From Cephalotus follicularis (Eukaryota; Streptophyta; Magnoliopsida; Oxalidales; Cephalotaceae), in the NCBI GenBank assembly GCA_001972305.1, contig BDDD01005914.1:30405-94404 (forward strand): DNA of 64,000 bases. Reading direction: 5' to 3'. This document shows, in pieces, positions 7,637 to 61,098 of this stretch. The notes beneath the pieces were generated by a model, which was not told where the DNA came from, made no database searches, and saw only the letters and a list, made by a program, of their open reading frames with translations. The stretch's first letter is position 1. The number at the start of each line of letters is the position of its first letter. The position numbers and the translations under genes were made by a program.

Positions 7637-8115
7637 TGTTGATAGTGAAATCAACTTCACAACAATCTTTCATGTGTGGAGGTTTGATTTGTTGAAGGAA
7701 ACGCTGGACGGTTCAAAAATTGTGTTTGGTTTATGATTATCTCGTCTTCCATGCACACACAGATAGCAAGTAATCAAAAATCCAGGAGGTTTTACTTCTG
7801 GGACACTCCGATACTTAAGTCAGTTGTTATGCATATAAAATAATAAGCTCGAATAGCAAATTGGTCGACCCTCCCGACTGTCATTCTTGGGGGTATTTAT
7901 AGCATTACCTGGCTATAACGTCTCTGAACTGCTAGTATTGTTGAGATGATTATGCGTCCATTGGAAATGGCTGAGATTCTAGACCATTTTTTTTATTACG
8001 GGATAGAGGCGTTTCCTCCCCCATTATGACCACGAACTTGGATGTTTTGCCCGTATTTGTGGGTTTTAATGACACGTGTCAGTACCTTAATAATATAAGA
8101 ATTTTTTACGTATCA
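7637..8115 (-). repeat. Left LTR (3' LTR) of Tat element A
   Basis: Direct repeat of 47647-48120. Shared blocks include gaaatcaacttcac, tagcaagtaatc, aggaggttttact, cgtttcctc and ccattatgaccacg. It runs on the plus strand from tgttgatag to tacgtatca, followed by a pyrimidine-rich stretch that is the polypurine tract of the minus-strand element. Confidence 0.85.
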
Positions 8116-8670: not shown

Positions 8671-8686
8671 CTTCATGAGTTTCCAG

Positions 8687-10128
8687 ATGGCTAGAGTTAA
8701 GCAAACCTCAAGACCAGCTGCTCTAGTAGAAATACGCCGCATGACTGAGGCAGTGACAGTTGTCGAGAGTCCTCTTGGCTCAGAGGATGCCATGGATGCT
8801 ATCGTAATAGGCAGTCCTGAGGTCGCCTCTTCCAAAGCTAGGACCCAAGTCTTTAAGACCCACATTGATAAAAGCGTACTTCTTCGCAAAAAAGTAGAGA
8901 AGTTGGTTAAAAAATATTGCTTTCCCAGAGGCTTGACCATATCCCTTCAACGAGATCCCAAGGAGGCCACAAAGAGCAGACCTGACCTCTTCGTGGTTTT
9001 CGAGGATGCTCTTTCACATGGTCTAAGACTTCCTGTACGCCCCTTGGCTATTGCGGTTTTGAGGAGTTTCCAACTTCATCCCTCACACCTTCAAGAGCAG
9101 TCCTAGACCTTAATAATGGGATTTTTAGTGAAACGTTTGGAAACAAAAGTGACAACGACGGTGGGGCTATTCAAGGAGTTTCATGTCCTCACTACATCTC
9201 CGGGAAAGCGCGGATACTACTTTTAAGTCGTGCACTGGTCTGACCAAGAAACTGTTGGTGGATCCTACAAAATCTAACAAGAACTAGAGGGAGAGGTACT
9301 TCCTTATTAGGAATCTACCTTGCTTCACTCCCTCCCATTGGTGTGATTCGTTGGATACCCAGCGCCTTAATTAGAGATTAATTTTATCTGGGGAATAGAA
9401 GGCAAACATTGCAAAGCTGTCAGTGCTGGAGTCCGAGGAAGTTAATTTTACCATAATCGAGGACCGTTTGAGCAGCGTTGGGCTGAGTCTATTCTGAGGT
9501 CGCAGAGACGTCTTGGACGATACAGAGGAGATCCCAGTGGGGATTGAGAGAGAGGGAGTTCAAGAGAGCATAGAAGAAATAGGAGTTACGCCCAGCAATG
9601 AGGGGGAAAGCCGTACTAAGCCTTCATCTCCTCCTTGGCTTCTAATTTCTCTATTTTGTTCTTTCCTTATTTCTTGTAATTCATGTTCTTAACTTTGATT
9701 TTATTGCTCTCTGCAGTAATGGGTTCTCGACGCTCTTTCGGAGATGTCTTGAGGGCTAATAGGGAGGAGTAGGGCACTGTTGATGAGGCAAGGTAGAGAG
9801 CCTTAAGGGAAGCCGCTACGGGGCCTAAGAAAAAGGCATAGAAGGAAGCTGTTACAACCGCCAAGAAGAGGTCTGACCGTGGCAAGTGAGTTGCGGAGGA
9901 TTTGCCCCATTCCGCTTTGCCCGTTCCTCTATCAAAGAAAAAAAAGGAGGAAAAGGCGGAGAAGGCTCTTCTCGCAGCCAAGAAGTTGTTCCCCCTACGG
10001 TGAGTTCTCGGGACCCTATCCTCCTTGGTGTGCCTTGGGACATCGACAGGATGGAATAAGAGCTGGAGGCGTTGGGCGACTATGGCTTGGACTTGAATGC
10101 CCAAAGGGAGCCTTTTGAGTTTAGCAGG
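8687..10128 (+). pseudogene. Antisense ORF (aORF) of Tat element A, 5' part; Transposase_28-like (PF04195)
   Basis: The ORF runs opposite to gag, between the 3' LTR and the minisatellite, where Tat elements may carry extra ORFs. I place the start at 8687, not the upstream in-frame ATG at 8675, because from 8687 the protein (MARVKQTSRP) aligns with element B (MARTKQTTRY) and follows the same leader. The block HGLRLPVRPLAIAVLRSFQL resembles the plant-only PF04195 'putative gypsy type transposon' family. Stops and frameshifts follow codon ~140. A likely intron spans 9613-9716 (GTACTAAG to CTGCAG), at the same place as in B. Downstream is a Lys/Arg-rich stretch near 9930-9970. The Athila insertion cuts the ORF at 10128; the remainder is at 40981. 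The biochemical function of this family is unknown. Confidence 0.75.
9613..9716 (+). other. Candidate intron in the antisense ORF of element A
   Basis: The sequence starts GTACTAAG, contains T-rich DNA and ends TTGCTCTCTGCAG. Element B has GTATTAAG and TTCTCTCCAG at the equivalent positions, 108 bp apart versus 104 bp here. Conservation of both sites between two elements whose surrounding DNA has diverged supports splicing of a plus-strand transcript. Confidence 0.55.
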
Positions 10129-12465: not shown

Positions 12466-13101
12466 TCAGTCGTCCATGGGAGTATCCACGTCATCGGTGG
12501 CTCCTTCATCAAATCCATTGACCTTAGGTAGTATGTGTGTGGCAATGGCACGGTGTAGGAACCTATGGTGCAAGCTAAGATTCCTAGTATACATTGTTTG
12601 TATACAATCAGCATTCTCACCAAATAATATTCTCACACACTCTTCTTTGTTAAAATCATCATTAATAATCCAATTCCGTTGGTTCCAACCTCTAGCACCT
12701 TCATATGGGATATCTAAGATAGTGGCTAGAGTTTTGAAGCTAAATCCTATCTCCGTATATTTAACTGTTGTATTTAAATCTAACCTAGAGCTGGGTAGGA
12801 TATTAACATAAAATTCTTTTATCAAGTCAAGATAGTAAGGTAAATTAATGGAGAAAAGAGGTTCTAAACCTTGGGCATTTAGCCAACCTACAACGGGGAA
12901 ACCTTCACTATTGCAAAAATTGAAATCAAAGGTCTTTCCTACAAGTATTTTTCGGTCAAAATAGGCTTTGGGATACCTTGGTAATGGAAGAATCTCCTGT
13001 TGTGATGACTGCTCAATAGTTCCTCTCTTCTTCTTCTTCCCAAGATGCTTTGTTTTTGTTCTTGATCCTTGCCCCACCTCAGTTTGCTTACTTCTAGGCA
13101 T
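12466..13101 (-). CDS. Extra ORF at the 3' end of the Sirevirus (plant transposon protein-like)
   Basis: This intact 211-codon ORF lies in the same direction as pol, between RNase H and the 3' LTR. That is where Sireviruses carry an env-like gene, but no signal peptide or membrane helix is visible. It opens MPRSKQTEVGQGSRTKTKHL, followed by a basic GKKKKRG stretch that could be a nuclear localisation signal. The block LIKEFYVNILPSSRLDL and the following helix-rich segment resemble the 'putative plant transposon protein' family (PF20167-like). The acidic C terminus ends ATDDVDTPMDD. The first residues match those of the Tat antisense ORFs (xRxKQT). It is the only uninterrupted frame left in the element's minus-strand coding region apart from short pieces. 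The function is unknown. Confidence 0.65.
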   Translation of the reverse strand: MPRSKQTEVGQGSRTKTKHLGKKKKRGTIEQSSQQEILPLPRYPKAYFDRKILVGKTFDFNFCNSEGFPVVGWLNAQGLEPLFSINLPYYLDLIKEFYVNILPSSRLDLNTTVKYTEIGFSFKTLATILDIPYEGARGWNQRNWIINDDFNKEECVRILFGENADCIQTMYTRNLSLHHRFLHRAIATHILPKVNGFDEGATDDVDTPMDD

Positions 13102-40980: not shown

Positions 40981-41641
40981 TGGAGGAGGTTCTTAGGGCC
41001 CAGGAGTCCGTCTTGGAGGAGAAGAGGCAGGCACTTAAAGCTCTTGCAAAGGTGGAGAGGGAAAAGGATATAATTCTTGAGAGCCACATCAGACTTTGCG
41101 ATTTGCTGTAGACTACGGAGGAGAGGTTCTCTTGATTCCAAGACAGGAAGCTACTCGGGTTGAAGAGGCGGTTGACAAAGTCCTTATGGAATTCAAAACT
41201 TCTTTTCAGTTTCAAGGTGCTTTTACTGGGGCTGTGGAAGACTTCAAGGCTTCTCCAGCTTTTGAGGAGGAATTTTTCAAGGAGTCTGCATGGTACTGTC
41301 ATCGGGGCTTCTATACCTGTCGCAACTGGGTGGCTACTCTTTATCCGGAGGTTCCCTTGGCTCCTATTGTATATCGTGAGTCAGCAAAAGAATTCGACTT
41401 TTTTCCTGAGGGGATCGAGGCAGAGGAAGAGAAGGCTCGCCTCGCCCTAGAGGAAGAAACTCGCCTTGCCTTGGAGGATGAAGAGTTACAGAGGGCAGAG
41501 CTCCCAGATCTAATTTTCTTGTCCTCCGATCATGCTGCAGAGCTTTCTCCCTCTGCTTTTGTTGCCCCTTCCTCTATGCCTACTTCAGAGCTTGTTGCTG
41601 CTTCTCAGCTTGGGGATGTTCGGGATCCTGCTCCTGTTTAG
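40981..41641 (+). pseudogene. Antisense ORF of Tat element A, 3' part
   Basis: It continues the ORF interrupted at 10128 and matches 52094-52744 of element B: a coil (LEEKRQALKALAKVEREKD), then FKASPAFEEEFFKESAWYCHRGFYTCRNWVATLYPEVPLAPIVY and DFFPEGIEAEEEK. The last 181 codons (41096-41641) are open, ending in an acidic, Ser-rich tail with stop TAG. About 200 bp corresponding to ~51900-52093 of B are missing at the junction with Athila. The function of this conserved C-terminal region is unknown. Confidence 0.75.
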
Positions 41642-45039: not shown

Positions 45040-45800
45040 TCTGACAAGTTCTTAGACCAACATTTACTCTCTTAGGAGTCTTTGTATTTCTCCCTTGGGA
45101 GTCTTTGAATAAGTTTGTATTAAAGCTTTAGTCTGATCAAGACTTTCTCTGATTGCTCCCTTCGGAGTCTTCTAGGATTGCTCCCTTAGGAGTCTTCTCT
45201 GACTACTCCCATGAGAGTCTTCTCTGATTGCTCCCTTGGGAGTCTTCTCTGACTGCTCCCTTGGGAGTCTTCTCTGACTGCTCCCGTGGGGGTCTTCTCT
45301 GATTACTCCCTTACGAGTCTTCTCCGATTGCTCTCGTACGAGTCTTATCTGATTGCTCCCTTAGAAGTCTTCTCTGAGTGCTCACGTGAGAGTCTTCTCT
45401 GATTGCTCCATTGGATGTCTTCTCTGATTGCTCCTTTAGGATTCTTCTCTGATTGCTTCTTTATGAGTTTTCCTGATTACTCCCTTAGGAGTCTTCTATG
45501 ATTCCTCCCTTAGGAGTCTTCCCTGAGTCCTCCCGTGGGAGTCTTCTCTGATTGCTCCCTTAGGAGTCTTCTCTAAGTGCTCCCGTGGGAGTCTTCTCTG
45601 ATTGCTCCCTTGGGGGTCTTCTCTGATTGCTACCTTAGGAGTCTTCTGTGATTGCTCCCTTAGGAGTATTCTCTAAGTGCTCCCGTGGGAGTCTTCTTAG
45701 ATTTCTCCCTTAGGAGTCTTCTTTGAGTTCTCCTATGGGAGTATTCTCTGATTGCTCCCTTAGGAGTCTTCTCTGAGTGCTCCCGTGGGAGTCTTTTTAT
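45040..45800. repeat. 25-26 bp minisatellite in Tat element A
   Basis: About 29 tandem units of the form gattgctcccttaggagtcttctct. Each unit contains the near-palindrome CTCC-CTTA-GGAG. Element B has only a few diverged units at the same place (53285-53600), so the array expanded in A. It lies between the end of the antisense ORF and where integrase should be. Confidence 0.92.
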
Positions 45801-46039
45801 CTAGAACTGGAATAGATTTTTTTAAAGAAAATCATCTTTATTGAATGAACTGAGCATTTGTACACATTTTTTTATACATAACTGATAATCTTTCGCTTCT
45901 GTAGACTAGATAAATACATCTCTATTATTTTTTAGAAACATAATCAGTTCCTCTTTCTCCACCTCTCTCTCAGCCAATGACCATTCTTAGTCAAAAAATG
46001 GTGTGTATCACCCCTCTAGGTTGGTTCTCCTCACCCTGC
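45801..46039. other. Junction where pol is missing in Tat element A
   Basis: The first part (tctttattgaatgaactgag and onward) aligns with 53760-53810 of element B, which there leads into integrase. In A it passes within about 200 bp into the gag C terminus. The entire pol region, over 3 kb in B, is absent. Confidence 0.7.
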
Positions 46040-47646: not shown

Positions 47647-48125
47647 TATTGATGGTGAAATCAACTTCACAAAAGTCCTCCACGTGTGGAGGTTTGATTA
47701 GTTGAAGGAAACGCCGGAAGGTCCGAAGATTGTGTTTTGTTTATGATTCTCTCGTCTTCCTTGCACACAAAGATAGCAAGTAATCGAAAGTCAAGGAGGT
47801 TTTACTCCCGGGGACACTCCGATGCTTAAGTCAGTTGTTATGCAGAGAAAATAATAAGCTCGAATGGAAAATTGGTCGACTCCCCTGACTGTCTTTCTTA
47901 GGGATATTTATAGTATTACCTGGCTGTAATAACTCTAAACTGATTGAATTGTGGAGATGATTATGAGTCCCTTGGAAATGGCCGAGATTCCATGCCATTT
48001 CTTCATGACGGGATAGAGGCGTTTCCTCGCCCATTATGACCACGTACTTGGACGTTTTGCCCGCATTTGTAGGTTTTAATGATACGTGTTAGTGCCTTAA
48101 TAATACAAGAATTTTTACCATATAA
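47647..48125 (-). repeat. Right LTR (5' LTR) of Tat element A
   Basis: Direct repeat of the left LTR, from tattgatggtgaaatcaac to aatttttacca(tataa). It is followed by atgca, the candidate target duplication. Confidence 0.85.
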
Positions 48126-49833: not shown

Positions 49834-51290
49834 TATGCCCCATGGTCTTCATTTTCTGGGCTTGGCAGAGGAGGAAGACCATTAATGGCTTGGCTTAACA
49901 TCGAGCAGGGCTTTTAGTGCATGAACAGGGCTACTAAGTCATTTGGGCCTTTTCATTTTGCCCAAATTTGGTGTAATTATGGTGCGACAGAGCAAAAGTC
50001 GCTTCCGTTACATGTCCTTTTAGTTGCCGTGCATTAACTCTTCATTTCCCGCACCTGATTTGATCGATCCATCTCAGCCGTTTAGTACAGTAGGGATCTA
50101 ATGGTTTGGAAGTGATCTAGGGTTCTTTAAATTGCTTCGTCTTCTTGCGAAAGTCTCTTTAGGCTTCCTTTTGATTTAAGAGCTCTTGTTTTCTCTCAGA
50201 TCTCCCAATTCTCCCAATCTTCAAAGCAAACTTCCTTCAAATCTTCCTTGCGTTAATTTCAAGTGAACAATTTTGCTCCGTTTGTTTTTAGTAAACTGTT
50301 TAGGCAAGTTAAGGGTCTTTCTCAGCTTTCCATCCTTTGTCTCTCTCTCTCTCTCTCTTCACAAATCTATAGATGGCTAGGACAAAACAAACCACCAGAT
50401 ACGTTAGAACTCCTGAAGAAGTACGTTGTGTCGGAGAAGGGGTTAGTGCCGTTGAACGCCCTCTGGGTATGGATGAGGCCTCGGATGCCACCACCGCTAG
50501 TGCTCCTGACGCTGCCTCTACTGAAGCTGGCGTCCAAGTTTTCTTTGACAAAAGCATGCTCTCTCGGGACAAAGTGAGTGCTCTGGCCAAAAAGTATTGT
50601 TTCCCAAGGGGCTTGACATATTCGCTCCCCAAGATCCCAATGAGGTCACTGAAAGCAAACCTGACCTATTTGTGGTTTTTGTGGATGCTATAGAGCATGG
50701 TTTGAGGCTCCCGATTCCGCCCTTTGCCCTTGCGATCCTAAGGCATTTCAAGATTCATCCCTCACTTCTCCAGGCCCAATCTTGGGCCTTTATCATAGGA
50801 TTTTTAGTGAAGTGTTTGGAGATCACAATGACTGCTACAGTGGGGCTCTTCAAAGAATTGCATACTCTCGCTGTTTCTCCTGGAAAGCACGGATACTACT
50901 TCAAGTCCCGCCCTGGTCTGACCAAGAAATTGTTGGTGGACCCCATGAAGTCTGTCAAGGGTTGGAGAGGGAGGTATTTTCTTGTCAAGAATCTCCCTGG
51001 GTTTTTCCCTTGTCAGTGGTCTGACACATTGGATATTCAATGCCTCAAGAAGATGTCAGTTTTGACTGATGCCGAAAAGGTAGACCTGGAAAAGCTCTCT
51101 GGTCTGGAACCCGGAGGGGTCAACCACACCATCTTCGAGGATCGTTTGCACCGTGTCAGACTGAGTATGTCCCCTGGTCGGTGAAACGTCTTGGATGAGG
51201 GAGAGGATATCTCAGAAGGGCTGGAGAGAGAGAGGGTTCAAAGCGGCCGAGAAGGAACCGATGCTTTGCCCGAGGCCGAGGCGGAAAGCT

Positions 51291-51398: not shown

Positions 51399-51896
51399 CA
51401 ATGGCTTTTTGGCGATCCTCGGATGATGCCCTGAGAGCTGCCAGAGAGAAAAACAAAGCTGTTGCCGAGGAGGAGAGGCGAAAGGCTATGCAAAAGGCTG
51501 CTGAGATGGTAGAGAAGTGAGCGGTTGAGGAGGCTGCTGCTGCTGGTGAGGCAGAGGCCGTGACTGAGGTTGCTACTGCCCAGATTGGTCGCGGCAAACG
51601 AGTTGCTAATAACCCACCACCTCGTCCCTCTAAAAAACACAAGAAGAGGAGGACATAAAAGGAAGGTTGTTCTCGGGAGAACGCTCTCGAGGTGAGTCCT
51701 CGGGAACCTGTCTGCCCTGACGTGCTCGTGGATCTTGGCAGAGTAAGAGAAGTACTCGAGAGGCTCGGCAACTCGGGTGTTAGCTTGAGAACGTTGGGGG
51801 TAGCGGTCAAGCTCATCAGGTTAGGCCTCCTTCCCGCCGAGATCGAAGAGAGGAAGGACTGGTCCGTTGGTCAAATGTGGACCCATATTTTCTAGG

Positions 51897-51982: not shown

Positions 51983-52744
51983 GCTATGAACGATGCCTAC
52001 CTCTTGCTAGAGAATTCCAAGGATGACAACGCACTCATTGAGCAGTTTCAAACTGAAAATGCGGAGCTCAAGAGGTCATTTGACGAGGCCTGCACCCAGC
52101 TTGAGGAAGTGCACGGGGCCCAATAGTTTGTCATGGAGGAGAAGAGGCAGGCTCCTGAAGAACTAGCAAAGGAGATGAAGGAGAGGGAGGTAGCGGTCCA
52201 CTACAACATCAAGCTTCAGGGTCAGTTGAAGGCTTACGATGAAAATCTCTCCAAGTTTCAAGAGATGAAGGCTGCTCAGACCGAGGCAGCAGTATACAGG
52301 GCCCTTATGGACTTCAAGGCTTCTTCAGAGTTTCAGGATGCTCTGACTAAGGCCGTGGATGACTTCAGGATTTCTCAAAGCTTCAAAGATAAAGTCCTAA
52401 AGGAGTCCGCAGTTCTTTATCGTAGGGGCTTCTATACATGCCGCAACCTGGTTGCTCGCCAACTAGAGGTTCCTCTGGACGACATCGTCTATTGCCCGAC
52501 CATTTCTGAGTTTGACTTCTTTCCCAAGGGGGTAGATGCAAAGGAAGCTGAAGTTCTCCTCGCCTTCATGGAGCAAGAACGCCAAGCTCGGGAGGCCGAT
52601 GAAGCGCAAAGGATAGAGCATTCAAATGCTATTGTTCCACACTCTGGAGCTACCGAGGATGTTGTCTTGAGCCCTCCTCCCTTGAACTTCCATGTGCCTG
52701 ATTCTTCAGATGTACATAATGTACCATCAAGGGATAAAAACTAA

Positions 52745-53811
52745 GCTAGGATTTTTCCTTTTTTGCCTTGTAATTTGACAATCTACTTGTTTATTTCTGA
52801 GCAATAAAACTTTAACTTTTCTGTTGCATCTGAGTTTCTCCTAGGAAATCTTGATACAAGTAACATAACTTATTTTCTGCTTAGTTTGAGCTTTGGTAAT
52901 TCCATTAGGAATTTTAACGTAGTCTATCTTGTTTGTAGACTTCTTTTGTGTAGTAGTCTGATATTTTTCAGACTGAGTTACCTAAACTTTCTAGTCCCTA
53001 TAGGACACTTTGTATCAAAAGTACTTAGGCACAGAGACTTGGTCTTTATGAGTTCTTAAGTGTTGACAGTCCAAGTCTTAGGTCTGGTTGGACAAGTTCT
53101 TACGAGTTTGCCGACCAGGATCTCGTCAGGTCCGTTATTTTCCAGACCAGGTCACCTGAGCTTGCCTCCCTCGTAGGGGCACTTGTATTAAAGTGCTCAG
53201 TCCAACAACTTTGATCATTACGAGTTCTTATGGGTTCGCCTCTCAAGTTACGATGTTGGTTTGGTCTGACGAATTTTTATAGCTTCGCTGACCAACGTTT
53301 GCTTCATTGGGAGTCTTTTTTATTGCTTCCTTAGAGGTCTTTTTGATTGCTTCCTTAGAAGTCTTTTGCTCCATTAGGAGTCTTGTAGCTTTGCTCCCTT
53401 AGGAGTATTTTAGTATTGCTCCCTTTGAAGTCTTTGGCGCTCCTCTGATGGAGTCTTTGGTGCTCCTCTGATGGAGTCTTCTCAGATTTGACACCTCGAT
53501 CTATTCGAGACATTAGTCTGCTCTAATTACTCCCTTAGGAGTTTTATGTCTTCGTGAGACTTAGAGAGCTCGGGTCCTATATCAAGACCTGCTCTGATTG
53601 CTCCCTTGGGAGCATGGTCGGACATGATTGTATTAGAGCTTCTTGATTGAGGGAACTAGTCGGTGGCTGTTTGGAGGTTTAAGGACTTGAACATTGGGCC
53701 TCCAGTCCCTTTCAAACTTGGAACTATAATCTTGAAACTGCTTTTTGATTCAAAAATTCATCTTTATTGATACTCTTGTATTTTGAACATGTGTACATAC
53801 TTGCACTAGTT
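52745..53811. other. Non-coding region of Tat element B between the antisense ORF and integrase
   Basis: It contains a gcaataaaac polyadenylation-like site just after the antisense ORF, repeats of tcagaccaggtcacctgag type, and a short degenerate version of the gctcccttaggagtctt minisatellite at 53285-53600. Confidence 0.7.
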
Positions 53812-55084
53812 ATTGATAGTACTTCCTTAGGTGTTCGACATTCCAAACCCTAGGAATCTCCCTGCCCCCCAGAGTTTCAAGTTTGAATGCTCTTGGTCAG
53901 AGCACTCTTTTCACCTTGTAGGGCCTCTCCCAATTCGGAGCTAGCTTTCCTTTGGTACTGGTTGAATCAGCTATTGCCACATTACGGAGGACTACGTCTC
54001 CTTCCCTTAGTGGTCTAGGGTTTACTCTTTAATTGTAATAACGGCTCACTCTCTGTTGGTAAGCTGCTACTCTGATGGCTGCCTTATGTCTGAACTCTTC
54101 CACTAAGTCGAGGAGGTTTCTCAATCCTTCTTCATTATTTTCTTCACTGAAATGAAAACCTCTAGGTGAATGCATTCCAATTTCCACCGGTATCATAGAT
54201 TTTGAATCGAAACAAAGGCTGAATGGGGACTCGCCGGTTGTGGTCCGAGCAGTTGTTTTATATGCCTATAGTACACTTAGTAACTCCCCTGTCCATCTTC
54301 CTTTGCTGTCTTCGAGGCGCTTTTTCAGCCCTGATACGATTTCTCTGTTAATGACCTCTGGTTGCTCATTGCTATGGGGGTAGGCTACTGAGGCAAGCCT
54401 ATGCTCAATCCTCTATTCTCTGCAAAAGTCTCAGAAATCCTGGCAATCAAACTTTTTCCCATTGTTGAAGACAATCACTCTGGGGACCCCGAAACGGGAA
54501 ATGATTGACTTCCATACGAAGATTTTCGTATTCTTCTCTGTTATTGTAGCTAGGGGTTCGGCTTCAACCCATTTAGTGAAGTAGTCCACTGCCAAAATGA
54601 GATATTTTCTCTGCCCTGTTGCTACTGGTAATGGTCCGATGAAGTCCATTCCCCATTGCTCGAAGGGCCAATGGGCAGTGATAGATGTCAGAGGCTCTGA
54701 TGGTCTTCTGCTTATGCTAGCATTCCTCTGACACTTATCACATTTCCTTACGAATTTGATGGCATCTTGGTGCATGGTCGGCCAGAAATAGCCCTGCCTT
54801 AATAGCTTACTTGATAAGGTTCTGCCCCCTGTGTGATTTTCACATACTCTTTCATGGATCTCACTTAGAGCATAATTGGCCTCTGAGGGAGTCAAACTTC
54901 TTAGCATTGGGAAAGAAAAAGACCTTTTGAAGAGAATTCCTTCTCGGAATTGGTATCTATTGGATCTATATACCAGTCTTCTCGCCTCCTCGGGGTCCTC
55001 TAGAAAAATTCCATCCCTTAGCCAACTAATAAACGGAGTCATCCAATTTGGCTCTTGTGGTACATCAATGTCCATCACATCCAC
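53812..55084 (-). pseudogene. Integrase of Tat element B
   Basis: The zinc-binding domain (EIHERVCENHTGG, CDKCQRN) and core (FEQWGMDFIGPLPVATGQRKYLILAVDYFTKWVEA) are clear. The second catalytic Asp is lost: VIVFNNGKKFD where the family has SDNGTQF. The C-terminal part (GRWTGELLSVL, TTARTTTGESPFSL, LREGDVVLRN and PNWERPYKVK) extends to about 53812, with stops after DCQDF (54428) and elsewhere. Confidence 0.85.
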
Positions 55085-55520
55085 TTCTAAAATGGAGGGG
55101 CCTCTCCAAGTAGTCTACTAGCACGGTTTGATTTTTCTCTAATTCCTCTATTGTGGCTAGTTTTGTCAACTGGTCTGCTCTGGCGTCTTCTGATCTGGGC
55201 ACCTTCAAAAGTCTGAATACTTGGAAAGCTGACTTCAAACTCTCAACATGTGCTAAGTATTTAGCCATTGAGTCTTCTCTGGCTTCATACTCTCCACTCA
55301 CCATACCAACTATAAGTTGAGAATCACTAGTGGCTTCTATTTTTTGAACCTTTAAGTGCTTTGCAATTGTCAGCCCGGTGATCATAGCTTCTCATTTGGC
55401 TTCATTATTTGTGGCTTTGAACCCAAATCTCAGGGCATACTCCAAGGTCCACCCGTCTGGACTAGTTAATACCAAACTTGCTCCACTCCCGGAGATGCAG
55501 GATGAGCCATCAACGGACAA
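55065..55520 (-). pseudogene. Second (archaeal-type) RNase H of Tat element B
   Basis: It begins LSVDGSSCISGSGASLVLTS (catalytic Asp), continues EYALRFGFKATNNEA and ITGLTIAKHLKVQKIEATSDSQLIV (second Asp), and ends with RSEDARADQLTKLAT. A stop replaces Tyr in the usual NNEAEYEA block. This extra RNase H domain between the first RNase H and integrase is characteristic of Tat. Confidence 0.85.
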
Positions 55521-56885
55521 CTTCCATAGCCCATTCTCATCTTCTGGGGAGTCTTCTTCCATACACTCTGTAAGTGTATTGTCTCCAACAAAATCCGCCA
55601 ATACCTGCGATTTTATTGTTGTTCTAGCCTCAAACTTCATGTCGTATTCGTCCAACTCGACAGACCACTTGACTAGTCTTCCTGACGTATCTGGCTTTGC
55701 TAGTACTTGTCTAAGTGGCTTGTCGATCAAAACTTTGATAGTGTGGGCTTGAAAATACGGCCTCAGCTTCCTCACCATAATAATCAGAGCATATACATAT
55801 TTCTCTACCTCTGGATATCTCCCCTCAGCATCATTCAAAACCTTGCTCACATAACATACTGGTCTTTGAACTTTATCCTCTTCCCTAATTGGCACTACAC
55901 TCACTGCTCCTAATGTTGCCGCAAGGTACAAATACAAGTCTTCCCCATCTCTTGGTTTTGATATCAGAGGAGGGGAAGCCATGTACTCGTTCAATTTCTC
56001 AAAGGCTGCTTGACATTCTTCCGACCAGGAAAATCCCTTGGGATCCCTCAATACCTTAAAGAAAGGAAGACATTTTTCTGCTGACTTGGAGACAAATCTG
56101 CTCAGGGCTGCGATTTTTCCATTTAACCTCTATATTTCCCTGATAGATTGAGGAGGCTTCAAGCTCTGAATTGCAGAGATATTCTCTGGTTTGGCCTTTA
56201 TTCCTCTGTTAGAAACCATAAACCCAAAGAACTTACCAGAAGTAACCCCGAAAGTACACTTGGAAGGATTGAGTCGCATTTTGTATTTCCTCAGTACGTC
56301 AAAAATCTCATCCAAGTATTTAATGTGAGGGCTCCTTGCAGGTGTTTTGACGAGCATGTCGTCAATGTAAACCTCCATATTCCTCCCGATCTGAGGTTCA
56401 AAGATCTTGTTGACCAACCGTTGGTAGGTCGCACCCGTATTTTTTAGTCTGAACGGCATGACTTTGTAGCAACACATGCCCTTGTCAGTGATAAAGTTGT
56501 CTTGTTCTCGTCTGGCCCATACATAGGGATTTGATTATAACCGAGCATGCATCCAAGAAGCTTAGCATTATGTACCCATAGGTTGCACCCACCAACTGAT
56601 CAATCTTCAAGAGGGGGAAGTGGTCTTTGGGACAAGCTTTGCTGAGGTAAGTGAAATCTATCCACATCCTCCACTTGCCATTCGCCTTCTTGACTAGGAC
56701 CGGGATTGCCAGCCAATCAAAATATTAAAATTCCCTTATAAACCCCACTTGTAATAGTTTGTTTACTTCATCTGATATTACCAATTGCCTCTCTGTGGTG
56801 AAATTTCTCTTCTTTTGCTTGATCGGAGGCCTCATTGGATCTACGCTCAGTTTATGTACCATCTGTTGGAGTAGCGGTGTCCCTA
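55521..56885 (-). pseudogene. Reverse transcriptase and first RNase H of Tat element B
   Basis: From the right: HKLSVDPMRPPIKQKKRNFT, EVNKLLQVGFIREF, VLVKKANGKWRMWIDFTYLSKACPKDHFPL, CYKVMPFRLKNTGATYQRLVNK and MEVYIDDMLVKTP (the YxDD box), then RNase H with FEKLNEYMASPPLISKP and YVSKVLNDAEGRYPEVEKYVYAL. Breaks occur at about 56720, 56480 and 56110. Sequence before HKLSVDP is replaced by unrelated DNA. Confidence 0.85.
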
Positions 56886-57234: not shown

Positions 57235-60200
57235 CCAAGTCATAGGTTCACTTTCTTAGGGCAATTGATGAACCGCAAAGACTTTCCATATTATGCTTAC
57301 CCTCTTGTGTGTGGGGGATGGACCATCTCATTACCATTTGGATTTATCCTAAAGCTGATACGGGCTTCGTGCTAGAGAGCATGAGACTGAAAAGGCCCAC
57401 CATAGGAAACCTATTTGGAAAGTCATACCTATGTCAATAGAATTCATATAGTCTCGCTAGTGTATAGTCTATGGTGACTAGTAGAGCATTTGTGGACTGA
57501 GTTGTATCGTTAGACCTGAGCAGCTGGCATACATTGTGTTGTAATAGCTTGGCTTTGATTTCCGCCTTCCCTAGCACTAGCCACGTGCTAGAAAAATGGT
57601 TGTCTTTAAGCCTTGTGGGAGCTTCATTGAGATATATGGGCGAGTGCGCAATAAGGGATCGTCACACCCGTATGAAGGGTGATCAGCTCTATATTATTTA
57701 TGTCCGTTGAGACTCAAAACCCTGATCAGGTATAGGCAAACTAAAAACGGGGTTTCCAGGGAAGTTTGCCGAAAGTCTCGATGTATACATAAATTTATAG
57801 TTATCGCGACTTCACCTAGGGGTGACATTATTCCGAACCCTAGGTCGCGGTCAGAGCTAAGAATGATGTGGGATACATGACACATATGCCGATGACTGGA
57901 TAAAGTACTGGTTAACCAGTTAACGAATGATAGACGTGGTGTACACGGATCCGGGGAATAATTGGAAATCATACCGGGGTCATTCTGATAGTCGAGGACT
58001 ATCAGGGTGGTCGTACCAGAACTCCGGGATGTTCTAGAAAATTTATCGTCGTTCCAGAATCTAACCGGGCTTTTGGGTCCCACCTGATTATTGGAAAAGT
58101 GATGCATGCTACACACATGCTAACTTGGTGAAAAATCTAGTTTTTAACTAGTATATATTAATTTGACATTAGTGGTTTATTTTTTACCACCGTATTGTCA
58201 TATTGATATATTAAGAGAAGCCACAGTGGGAGTATGTTGATACATACGATGTGCGAGGCACAGAACAATAAAGGGAGAAATTTCTAATAAATGAGAAAGA
58301 GAAAAAATAAGGCACATGTCATTTTTTGGTCTTCATATATTTTTGACACACCAAAAAGTGCTGGGTAGCGCAAAAACAGGGGAAAATGAACCATTGAGTG
58401 CGTCACGCGCAGCAGGTGCGTTTTCGACCTGAGAAGACTACCACCTTGTCGCTGGTGACTGGGAAAAGAGGCGGCCTCTCATCCACGGTACGCCTTTTCT
58501 CTTTCTCTCCCCATTTTTCTCTTTCTTTCTCTCAGCGTTCTCCTGAATCGTTTTGCGTCTCCCACCGTCGGCCTCTCTTTCCGCAACCAACGATCACAGT
58601 AGGTGGAGCCAATCCTTGGCTCTACCTATTTTGATTCTAGACTAGGTGATTTCTAAGCATTTTTTTCCAGATTTCGTTCTGTGAATCGACTCTGTCGAGT
58701 CAACTCGTTGTGCGTCGTGGCTTGGCATTCTTGCCCGAGTCACAGCGGGTCTTGGGTCGCAGTGCGAAGATCAGGAGTTTGCTGACCTGTGATGGCGCGG
58801 CAGGTCCATGGTGAGTTGACCGGGTCACACTGAGTCCAAACTCAGCGAGTCACCGCAGCTGCTAGCTGCTCCATGGAGTTCCGGGGTGCTTCCCATCGAG
58901 TCTCCACCAGAAACGGGTAGATTGGCAATTTTGGAGTCCAATGATGTCCTGGTCGGACCTCAGGCGACATGGTCAGAATCTCGCAGTGGCGTCGGTGACC
59001 GGCAGTTGCTGCTGCAAGCCCGTAGCGACAAAGTGGTGGAGCCGCCAACGTTGGTATGGTTCCTAATCATTTATATTTATTGTTATCGATTTATTCGGTT
59101 TGTGAAAGTGGATGTATGCTTGATTTCGGTTAGTTCAATTGAACATTAAATTAACGGTGATCATTGACATTTTTATTATGGTAGTAAGATGTCAGTGTGA
59201 ACCTAGACTTGTGAGTCTTGGTGTTAAAAAAATTAAAATTATACACACTAGCATCCTAGACCCAAAATAGACCAAGACCCCTCCTGGGTTCCCACAAACT
59301 TGGTATTTGTTTTTAATATTCAATCGATTGGCCACTGCCGGTCACCGGCGTCACTGCCGGATTCCAGCCAACTCGCCTGAGGTCCGACCACGACATTATT
59401 GGACTCCAAAAAGGCCGATCTACCCATTTCTGGTGGAGACTAGTTAGGAAGCACCATGGAACACCATGGAGCAGCTGGTAGTGGCGATGACTCACTGAGT
59501 TCGGCCTTAGTGAGACTCGGCATGGACCAGCCATGCCATCACCGGCCACCAAATCTTTCGATCTTTGCATCAGGACCCAAAACCCACCGTGACTCGGGCC
59601 AGAAGACCAAACCAAGGCGCACAACACGTCGACTTGACAGAGTCGACTCAACATATCAAAATCCGGCCAAAAACGCATGGAAATCACCTAATCTAGGATC
59701 AAGACAGGTATAGCCAAGGATTGGATCCACCTACTATGATCGTCGGCGGTGGAAGAGAAAGGCCGACGGTGGAAGACGCAAAATGCATCAGAAACACCAG
59801 AGAGAATAGGAAGAGAAAACTGGGAGAGAGAGAGAGAAGTGGCTTACCGTGGACGATAGCTAGCCTCTTTTCCTGGCCATCGAGGCCAACGCGGCCGTCT
59901 TCTCCAGCCGGAAAAGCGCCCCGGCACACAACGCACACACTGGTGTGTTTTAACCTGTTTTTATGCTACCCGGCGCTTTTTGGCGTGTCAAAAATATATG
60001 AAGACCAAAAAATGCCATGTGTCTTATTTTGTCTCTTTCTCATTTATTATAAATTTCTCTCTTTATTGTTATGTGTCCCGCACATTGTATGCATCAACAT
60101 ACTCCCACTGTGGCTTCTCTTAATATATAAATATGACAATACGGTGGTAAAAAACAAACCACTAATGTCAAATTAATATATACTAGTTAAAAACTAGATT

Positions 60201-61098
60201 TTATACCAAGTTAGCATGTGTGTAGCATGCATCACTTTTCCAATAATCAGGCGAGACTCGAAAGCCCGGTTGGATTCCGGTACAATGATAAATTTTCCAG
60301 AACATCCCGGAGTTATGGTACGACCACCCTGATAGTCCCCGACCATCAGAATGACCCCAGTATGATTTTTAATCATCCCTCAGATCAGTGTAAACCACGT
60401 CTATCATCCTTTAACTGGTTAACCAGTACTTTATCAGTCATCAGCATATGTGTCATGTATCCCACGTAATTCTTAGCTCCGACCACGATCTAGGGTTCGG
60501 AATAATGTCACCCCTAGATAAAGTCCCGATAACTATAAATCTACGTACGCATCGAGACTTTCAGCAGACTTCCCTGGAAACCCCGTTTCCAGTCTGCCTA
60601 TAGTTGATCAAGGTTTTGAGTCTCAACGGACATAAATAATATAGAGCTGATCACCATTCATATGGGTGTGACGATCCTTTATTGCGCACGCACCCATACA
60701 TCTCAATGAAGCTCCCACAAGGCCTAAAAACAACCCTTTTGCCAGCACGTGGCTAGTGCTGGGGAAGGCGAAAATCAAAGCCAAGCGATTACAACACAAC
60801 GCATGCTAGCCGCTCAGGTCTAAGGATACAACGCAATTCATGAATGGTCTACTAGTCACCATAGACTATACACTACCGAGACTATAGGAATCCTATTGAC
60901 ATAGGTATGACTTTCCAAATAAGTTTCCAATGGTGGGTCTGTTCAATCTCACGCTCTCTAGCACGAACCCCGCATTAGCTTTAGGATAAATCCAAATGGT
61001 TATGAGATGGTCCATCCCCCACACGCAAGAGGGAAAGCATAATACGGCAAGTGTTTACGGTTCATCAATTGCCCTAAGAAAGTGAACCTATGATTTGG
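57235..61098. mobile_element. Large inverted repeat of two opposed Copia 3' ends
   Basis: The left arm 57235-~59015 and right arm ~59330-61098 are reverse complements over about 1.8 kb, with a ~315 bp spacer. Each arm contains a Copia 3' non-coding region, a polypurine tract (left: cacagtgggagta; right: its complement tactcccactgtgg) and an LTR beginning TGTTGATACATACGATGTG (left, at 58236) or its complement ending near 60100. The two Copia ends therefore face each other. No coding domain remains; the mirrored frames (for example 57694-58116 and 60218-60469, both opening MCSMHHFSNNQ) are arm sequence. Confidence 0.85.

Follow-up and report, generated by a model that had tools for sequence, protein, structure and literature searches.

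A histone H3-like N terminus is a conserved feature of the antisense accessory gene of Tat/Retand-type retrotransposons in Cephalotus follicularis

Introduction

The accessory genes that run antisense to pol in Tat/Retand-type retrotransposons have roles that are described as undetermined (PMC7264820, PMC11963269), and the conserved histone H3-like end reported here offers a concrete hypothesis for them. A related antisense protein, GENE23 of Grande, is a nuclear protein with a promoter of its own (PMC7264820), and TRP28, the domain concerned here, is predicted to bind DNA (PMC11963269). The VANC proteins show that a plant transposon can code for an anti-silencing protein with sequence specificity (PMC10398659). 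On the side of the chromatin readers, the PHD finger of UHRF1 binds PAF15 at its H3-like N terminus and DPPA3 at its VRT motif (PMC7060239 and PMC11187062), and the Arabidopsis VIM proteins, with the exception of VIM6, carry an N-terminal PHD finger (PMC8594673).

Here we describe an H3-like N terminus on the accessory proteins of two elements in a window of Cephalotus follicularis DNA (the window being the whole stretch analysed, 64,000 nucleotides) and follow it through the genome of this species. H3 N-terminal mimicry is reportedly the topic of Gomez-Orte 2013 and Chen 2021. We know of no earlier transposon-encoded N-terminal H3 mimic, so that TRP28 proteins, if they do act in this way, would be the first.

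Two Tat/Retand-type elements with an antisense gene

The window contains two degraded Tat/Retand-type LTR retrotransposons, A and B, with the accessory gene on the forward strand. The pol domains of element B occupy 54434–56534 on the reverse strand, opposite to the accessory ORF. They comprise a reverse transcriptase (PF00078, 56133–56534), a first RNase H (PF17919 and PF17917, 55395–56129), a second RNase H (PF13456, 55068–55391) and an integrase (PF17921 and PF00665, 54434–55084), all on the reverse strand, the integrase likewise being antisense to the accessory ORF. We take a second RNase H to be the hallmark of Tat-type pol, and in element B PF17919/PF17917 and then PF13456 occur in that order. 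The second LTR of element B was not found. Adjoining this element is a long inverted repeat (57235–61098) with arms of about 1.78 kb that are 85% identical.

The accessory gene of element B includes a TRP28 core (PF04195, Transposase_28) at 50597–51184 on the forward strand, which scores 37.8 bits against a cut-off of 26.2 and is in a different frame from the N terminus. A downstream coding block of the same gene, without a Pfam match, lies at 52133–52744 (forward strand). PF04195 thus places a TRP28 antisense accessory gene in element B. The antisense ORF of element A (8687–9103, forward strand) has 139 open codons and runs into PF04195; its score of 21.9 bits falls below the same cut-off because the frame stops within the domain.

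Element A is flanked by LTR-like direct repeats of 468 bp, at 7639–8106 and 47649–48116, which are 86.8% identical, and an LTR-like repeat adjoins the accessory ORF. By our reading of the arrangement of the repeats, element A is interrupted by nested insertions, which have split off the second part of its accessory gene, a downstream coding block at 41096–41641 (forward strand). Other elements, apparently inserted into A, occupy 10129–39687 and part the two halves of the gene. Element A also contains an array of 25-bp tandem repeats at 45041–45914, and related repeats occur in element B near 53226–53488.

Both accessory ORFs begin like histone H3

The N terminus of histone H3 reads MARTKQTAR. 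The accessory ORF of element B begins with MARTKQTTRY at 50373–50402 on the forward strand (ATG GCT AGG ACA AAA CAA ACC ACC AGA TAC), directly after an in-frame TAG, and has eight of the nine H3 residues. The antisense ORF of element A begins with MARVKQTSRP at 8687–8716 on the forward strand. Both starts are as the original prediction had claimed. They are the most and second most H3-like (seven and six of the eight residues after Met) of the 1418 ATG starts in the window with at least 10 codons. Only 9e-6 starts with at least seven of eight matches are expected per window, and the best start in each of 60 simulated windows reached three to five of eight. The match of the window starts to H3 is therefore far above chance.

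The likeness ends after residue 9. Over residues 10–38 each of the two proteins shares 2 of 29 residues with H3, and these are therefore not captured H3 genes, an origin that we rule out. Third in H3 likeness among the window starts (four of eight residues; 0.6 such starts expected by chance) is that of an ORF in an unrelated element: a Copia-type ORF at 12466–13101 on the reverse strand that starts with MPRSKQTEV after AAAA. It lies 3′ of a Ty1/copia pol on the same strand and has a match to PF20167 (Transposase_32) that is below the cut-off.

Both window accessory ORFs are broken. Element B has 106 open codons from its H3-like Met (50373–50690, forward strand), the homologous frame being lost through a shift near 50615–50630, and element A has 139. 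A further claim of the original prediction was that the protein of element B also has a basic, nuclear-signal-like stretch. The stretch exists (RGKRVANNPPPRPSKKHKKRRT, 51590–51655, forward strand), but it does not share the frame of the N terminus and is found beyond stops and a probable intron.

The H3-like start recurs across the genome

The 1.58-Gb genome of C. follicularis has the exact 24-base start at five sites, the window included. One of them, on C8741 (L004 and L005), is identical to the window region over the stretch compared and represents either a copy duplicated recently or another haplotype in the assembly. Locus L001, on C68, has a 337-codon open frame that begins with MARTKQTTRH and shows no Met back to the preceding in-frame stop; two other copies selected by the motif stop at codon 9 (L002) and codon 68 (L003). 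Because L001–L003 were picked by the motif, they are uninformative on its conservation, which was assessed in two samples that are independent of it.

The first such sample was 200 kb of C68 (L007–L026, 4.5% N). It contains one copy of the TRP28 core, spread over L016 and L017, whose frame is broken further downstream. Its first residues, MARTKRTSRK, directly follow an in-frame stop, and with six of eight matches they show the highest H3 likeness among the 4895 ATG starts of the sample. Accessory downstream blocks (E 1e-6) were also seen in L015 and L021, with no detectable TRP28 core nearby.

The second sample came from a genome-wide search with the core of element B, in which 150 of 13,303 first-look candidates were scored. 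It consists of 40 loci, namely all scored rows that have no internal stop and an open frame of at least 262 residues, minus L001, each taken with 481 upstream bases; the remaining 110 scored rows, to which L001 and both the window copy and its duplicate belong, lie outside it. The sample represents relatives close to the core of B in one species, and its N-terminal columns were set by alignment, not by H3 likeness.

Among these 40 core-selected loci, 35 have at least six of the nine H3 residues, 10 have at least eight and two have all nine. The full distribution is one locus each with no match and one match, three with five matches, eight with six, 17 with seven, eight with eight and two with nine. 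The exact MARTKQTAR is present in L048 and in L042, whose frame is broken. By column, the 40 loci have M in 34, A in 29, R in 31, T in 27, K in 37, Q in 33 and T in 36; the next column is mixed (T 12, S 12, A 9), followed by R in 29 and, at the tenth position, Q in 18 or Y in 15. The start regions of L057 and L062 could not be aligned, which leaves 38 alignable loci. Val replaces Thr3 in element A and in seven of the 40 copies, and three loci (L027, L036 and L041) start with M-V-R-T-K.

The frame is open from the motif Met to the core in 19 of the 40 loci and closed in the other 21. Every one of the 19 open copies has six to nine of the nine H3 residues. Met and Lys4 are kept in all 19, Thr6 in 18, Gln5 in 17, Arg8 in 16, Arg2 in 15, and Ala1 and Thr3 in 14 each, with variation at H3 positions 7 and 9. 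Free variation of the first residues among intact copies would have spoken against the original prediction; apart from those two positions, the start is instead kept in copies that are open from start to core. In the C. follicularis genome the accessory gene thus has a conserved H3-like start.

Protein searches returned ten matches, all from Cephalotus; the last of these searches scored the 7998 candidates that shared most words. In viral contigs no relatives were found of the TRP28 core or of the Transposase_32 ORF, and solved structures gave no meaningful match to the N-terminal 80 residues of B or to the core profile. The AlphaFold model of the annotated protein P0002 has a mean pLDDT of 38.8, too poor for fold comparison.

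The motif Met is the first in-frame Met in the sampled copies

No further upstream in-frame Met occurs within about 190 upstream bases in any of the 34 sampled copies that have Met at the motif. The H3 context around K4 therefore stands at the first in-frame Met, with element A as an exception: there an extra in-frame ATG 12 nucleotides upstream (8675–8686, forward strand) would add MSFQ, although it might fall within a 5′ UTR intron. Donor-like sites are present upstream of the start in both elements, 143 nucleotides away in A (eight of nine consensus positions) and, weaker, 110 nucleotides away in B (six of nine). An AG immediately precedes the ATG in 19 of the 34 copies and is missing in the other 15 and in L001 and L002, and we therefore rejected the idea that a second coding exon begins at the start region. 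A 5′ UTR intron ahead of the start is possible and would leave the N terminus unchanged.

None of the ten annotated C. follicularis relatives (P0001–P0010) starts at the motif; all begin inside the frame, and the annotated Mets of P0002, P0004 and P0010 align some 32–36 residues into it. Taken together with the upstream ATG of element A and with the closure between motif and core of both window copies and of 21 of the 40 sampled copies, these gene models could mean that translation truly starts downstream (for example, at a Met near residue 33), or that the ORF is untranslated, in which case the cell would contain no H3-like end. We consider this improbable. On C1852 (L027), taken as the P0002 locus, the open frame extends upstream as far as the motif Met, where it reads MVRTKQTTRY, so that the P0002 model omits 32 residues. 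In addition, pN is below pS from the motif Met onward, and the motif Met has no in-frame competitor in the roughly 190 bases upstream in any of the 34 copies.

Constraint on the start codons

Across the 38 alignable loci pN is 0.15 for codons 2–7, 0.19 for codons 2–9 and 0.35 for codons 10–27. The value for codons 2–7 is below that for codons 10–27 in all 60 bootstraps over loci, but the range 2–7 was picked after seeing the counts and, because the loci are related, the bootstrap is no formal probability. Six pairs of copies, which are non-independent, give Fisher p values of 0.009–0.03 for the motif against its surroundings.

The two window copies share seven of nine residues in codons 1–9. 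Between them pN is 0.14 in codons 1–9, 0.42 in codons 10–35 and 0.17 in the core, and codons 1–9 differ from codons 10–35 and codons 10–92 with Fisher p values of 0.03 and 0.08, respectively. At the DNA level their identity is no higher in the motif (20 of 27 bases in the first nine codons) than in the 27 bases just upstream (21 of 27).

By pN, then, the motif is conserved above its surroundings, whereas its pN/pS is just slightly below that of the linker: 0.50 for codons 2–9 in all 40 loci, compared with 0.49–0.66 in five linker windows (codons 10–54). Three windows of codons 55–81 give 0.19, 0.49 and 0.22 in the same loci. The sampled copies carry much neutral decay.

Individual codons differ in what they indicate. 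At the Lys4 codon AAA and AAG are both frequent, yet pN is 0.04, and Lys4 is under protein-level constraint; with so few synonymous sites, the pS of 1.32 at this codon is an inflated value. Codon 6 (CAA) has undergone nearly no synonymous change (pS 0.01), and pN and pS are nearly the same at codon 9. Some of the conservation may therefore reflect recent descent or act at the DNA level. Codons 4 and 8 vary freely, with pN values of 0.41 and 0.48.

We think it quite unlikely that the conservation lies at the DNA level, in a signal near the start codon for transcription, the leader or splicing, with the peptide as a by-product. Such a signal would fit the adjoining leader, which is also fairly conserved (pN 0.27 for codons −8 to 0 in the 40 loci, besides the 21 of 27 bases shared by A and B), the barely varying third base of the CAA codon and the acceptor-like AG where it precedes the ATG. 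It does not fit the 15 of 34 copies that lack this AG, the freedom of codons 4 and 8 to change, or the Lys4 codon, in which the third base varies and the residue stays constant.

A candidate mimic of the H3 tail

A conserved start that fits the free H3 end at residues used by H3 readers, the precedents of the UHRF1 and VIM PHD fingers, the nuclear location of GENE23 and the DNA binding predicted for TRP28 together lead us to prefer a DNA-bound mimic of the H3 tail. We propose, with about even confidence for and against, that the antisense TRP28 protein imitates the free H3 tail with a short, conserved N terminus (A1-R2-T3-K4-Q5-T6-x-R8) that would serve to dock chromatin readers. In this mechanism, removal of Met would expose a free A-R-T-K end, the accessory protein would enter the nucleus, and the TRP28 domain would hold it on DNA, probably that of the element itself. 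The tail would then dock into H3-tail readers or enzymes, such as LSD1-type enzymes or PHD or ADD fingers (for example, those of VIM/UHRF1-type proteins), and docking would either recruit these readers to the element or compete with H3. The likeliest benefit would be anti-silencing, with chromatin docking as the alternative.

From the sequence we infer that the H3-like start may bind readers and counteract silencing. A more specific version is tentative: that an abundant lineage of plant retrotransposons encodes a dedicated, DNA-bound TRP28 decoy whose free ARTKQT(A/S/T)R end recruits or blocks H3-tail readers, such as VIM-type PHD proteins, and so leaves the element unsilenced, and that unrelated Copia elements may independently have reached a similar start, MPRSKQT. 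If true, the proposal would link TRP28 accessory proteins to silencing escape or chromatin targeting.

It counts against a mimic that two residues required by some H3 readers, Thr3 and Ala1, are kept less often than the other key residues (each in 14 of the 19 open copies). N-terminal acetylation after Met removal could also block H3 readers.

The main rival is that the nonapeptide is a short basic arm (A-R-x-K-Q-T-x-R) for contact with DNA or RNA or for nuclear import, its H3 likeness being convergent and involving no reader binding. We regard this as possible but rather doubtful. Conservation is good at all three basic positions (Lys4 in 19, Arg8 in 16 and Arg2 in 15 of the 19 open copies), DNA binding is predicted for TRP28 (PMC11963269), and the residues that mark an H3 end, Thr3 and Ala1, are less well kept. 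The Copia accessory ORF in the window, with its MPRSKQT start, suggests that starts of this basic kind may be widespread among plant elements. However, a basic arm on its own needs neither Gln5 (17 of 19) nor Thr6 (18 of 19), and it predicts common exchanges between Lys and Arg, whereas none of the 19 open copies has Arg at Lys4. Two of the 40 copies, L048 and the frame-broken L042, match H3 residues 1–8 in full, which again speaks for a mimic of the H3 tail over a basic arm.

Comparison with known systems

The Cephalotus protein shares with the TRP28 proteins of Retand/Tat elements (Grande GENE23, RIRE2 and Retand ORF4) the PF04195 domain, a position antisense to pol and a pol with two RNase H domains. 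An H3-like N terminus, seen here in Cephalotus, goes unmentioned in the main text of the TRP28 and antisense-gene papers PMC11963269 and PMC7264820, in which the terms ‘histone’, ‘H3K4’, ‘N-terminal’ and ‘mimic’ do not occur. Nor did we find such an end on TRP28 proteins in print, in a search that covered few subscription journals.

VANC of VANDAL transposons is likewise a plant transposon protein, and acts on the chromatin of its own element (PMC10398659), an action that is only proposed here. The class of element differs from Tat/Retand. To our knowledge, VANC proteins have no H3-like tail.

Like the Cephalotus protein, PAF15 (PCLAF) is not a histone yet imitates the H3 end with its own N terminus (PMC7060239 and PMC11187062); the M-V-R-T-K start of L027, L036 and L041 belongs to this likeness. 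PAF15 is an animal host replication factor, whereas the Cephalotus protein is the product of a plant mobile element and has the longer match, through T6 and R8. Nothing in the sequence data on the Cephalotus protein points to ubiquitylation.

Influenza NS1 and other viral histone mimics are likewise proteins of parasites that carry a motif resembling the H3 tail (PMC10208167). NS1 has its ARSK at the C terminus; the Cephalotus TRP28 protein, like H3 itself, bears the motif N-terminally.
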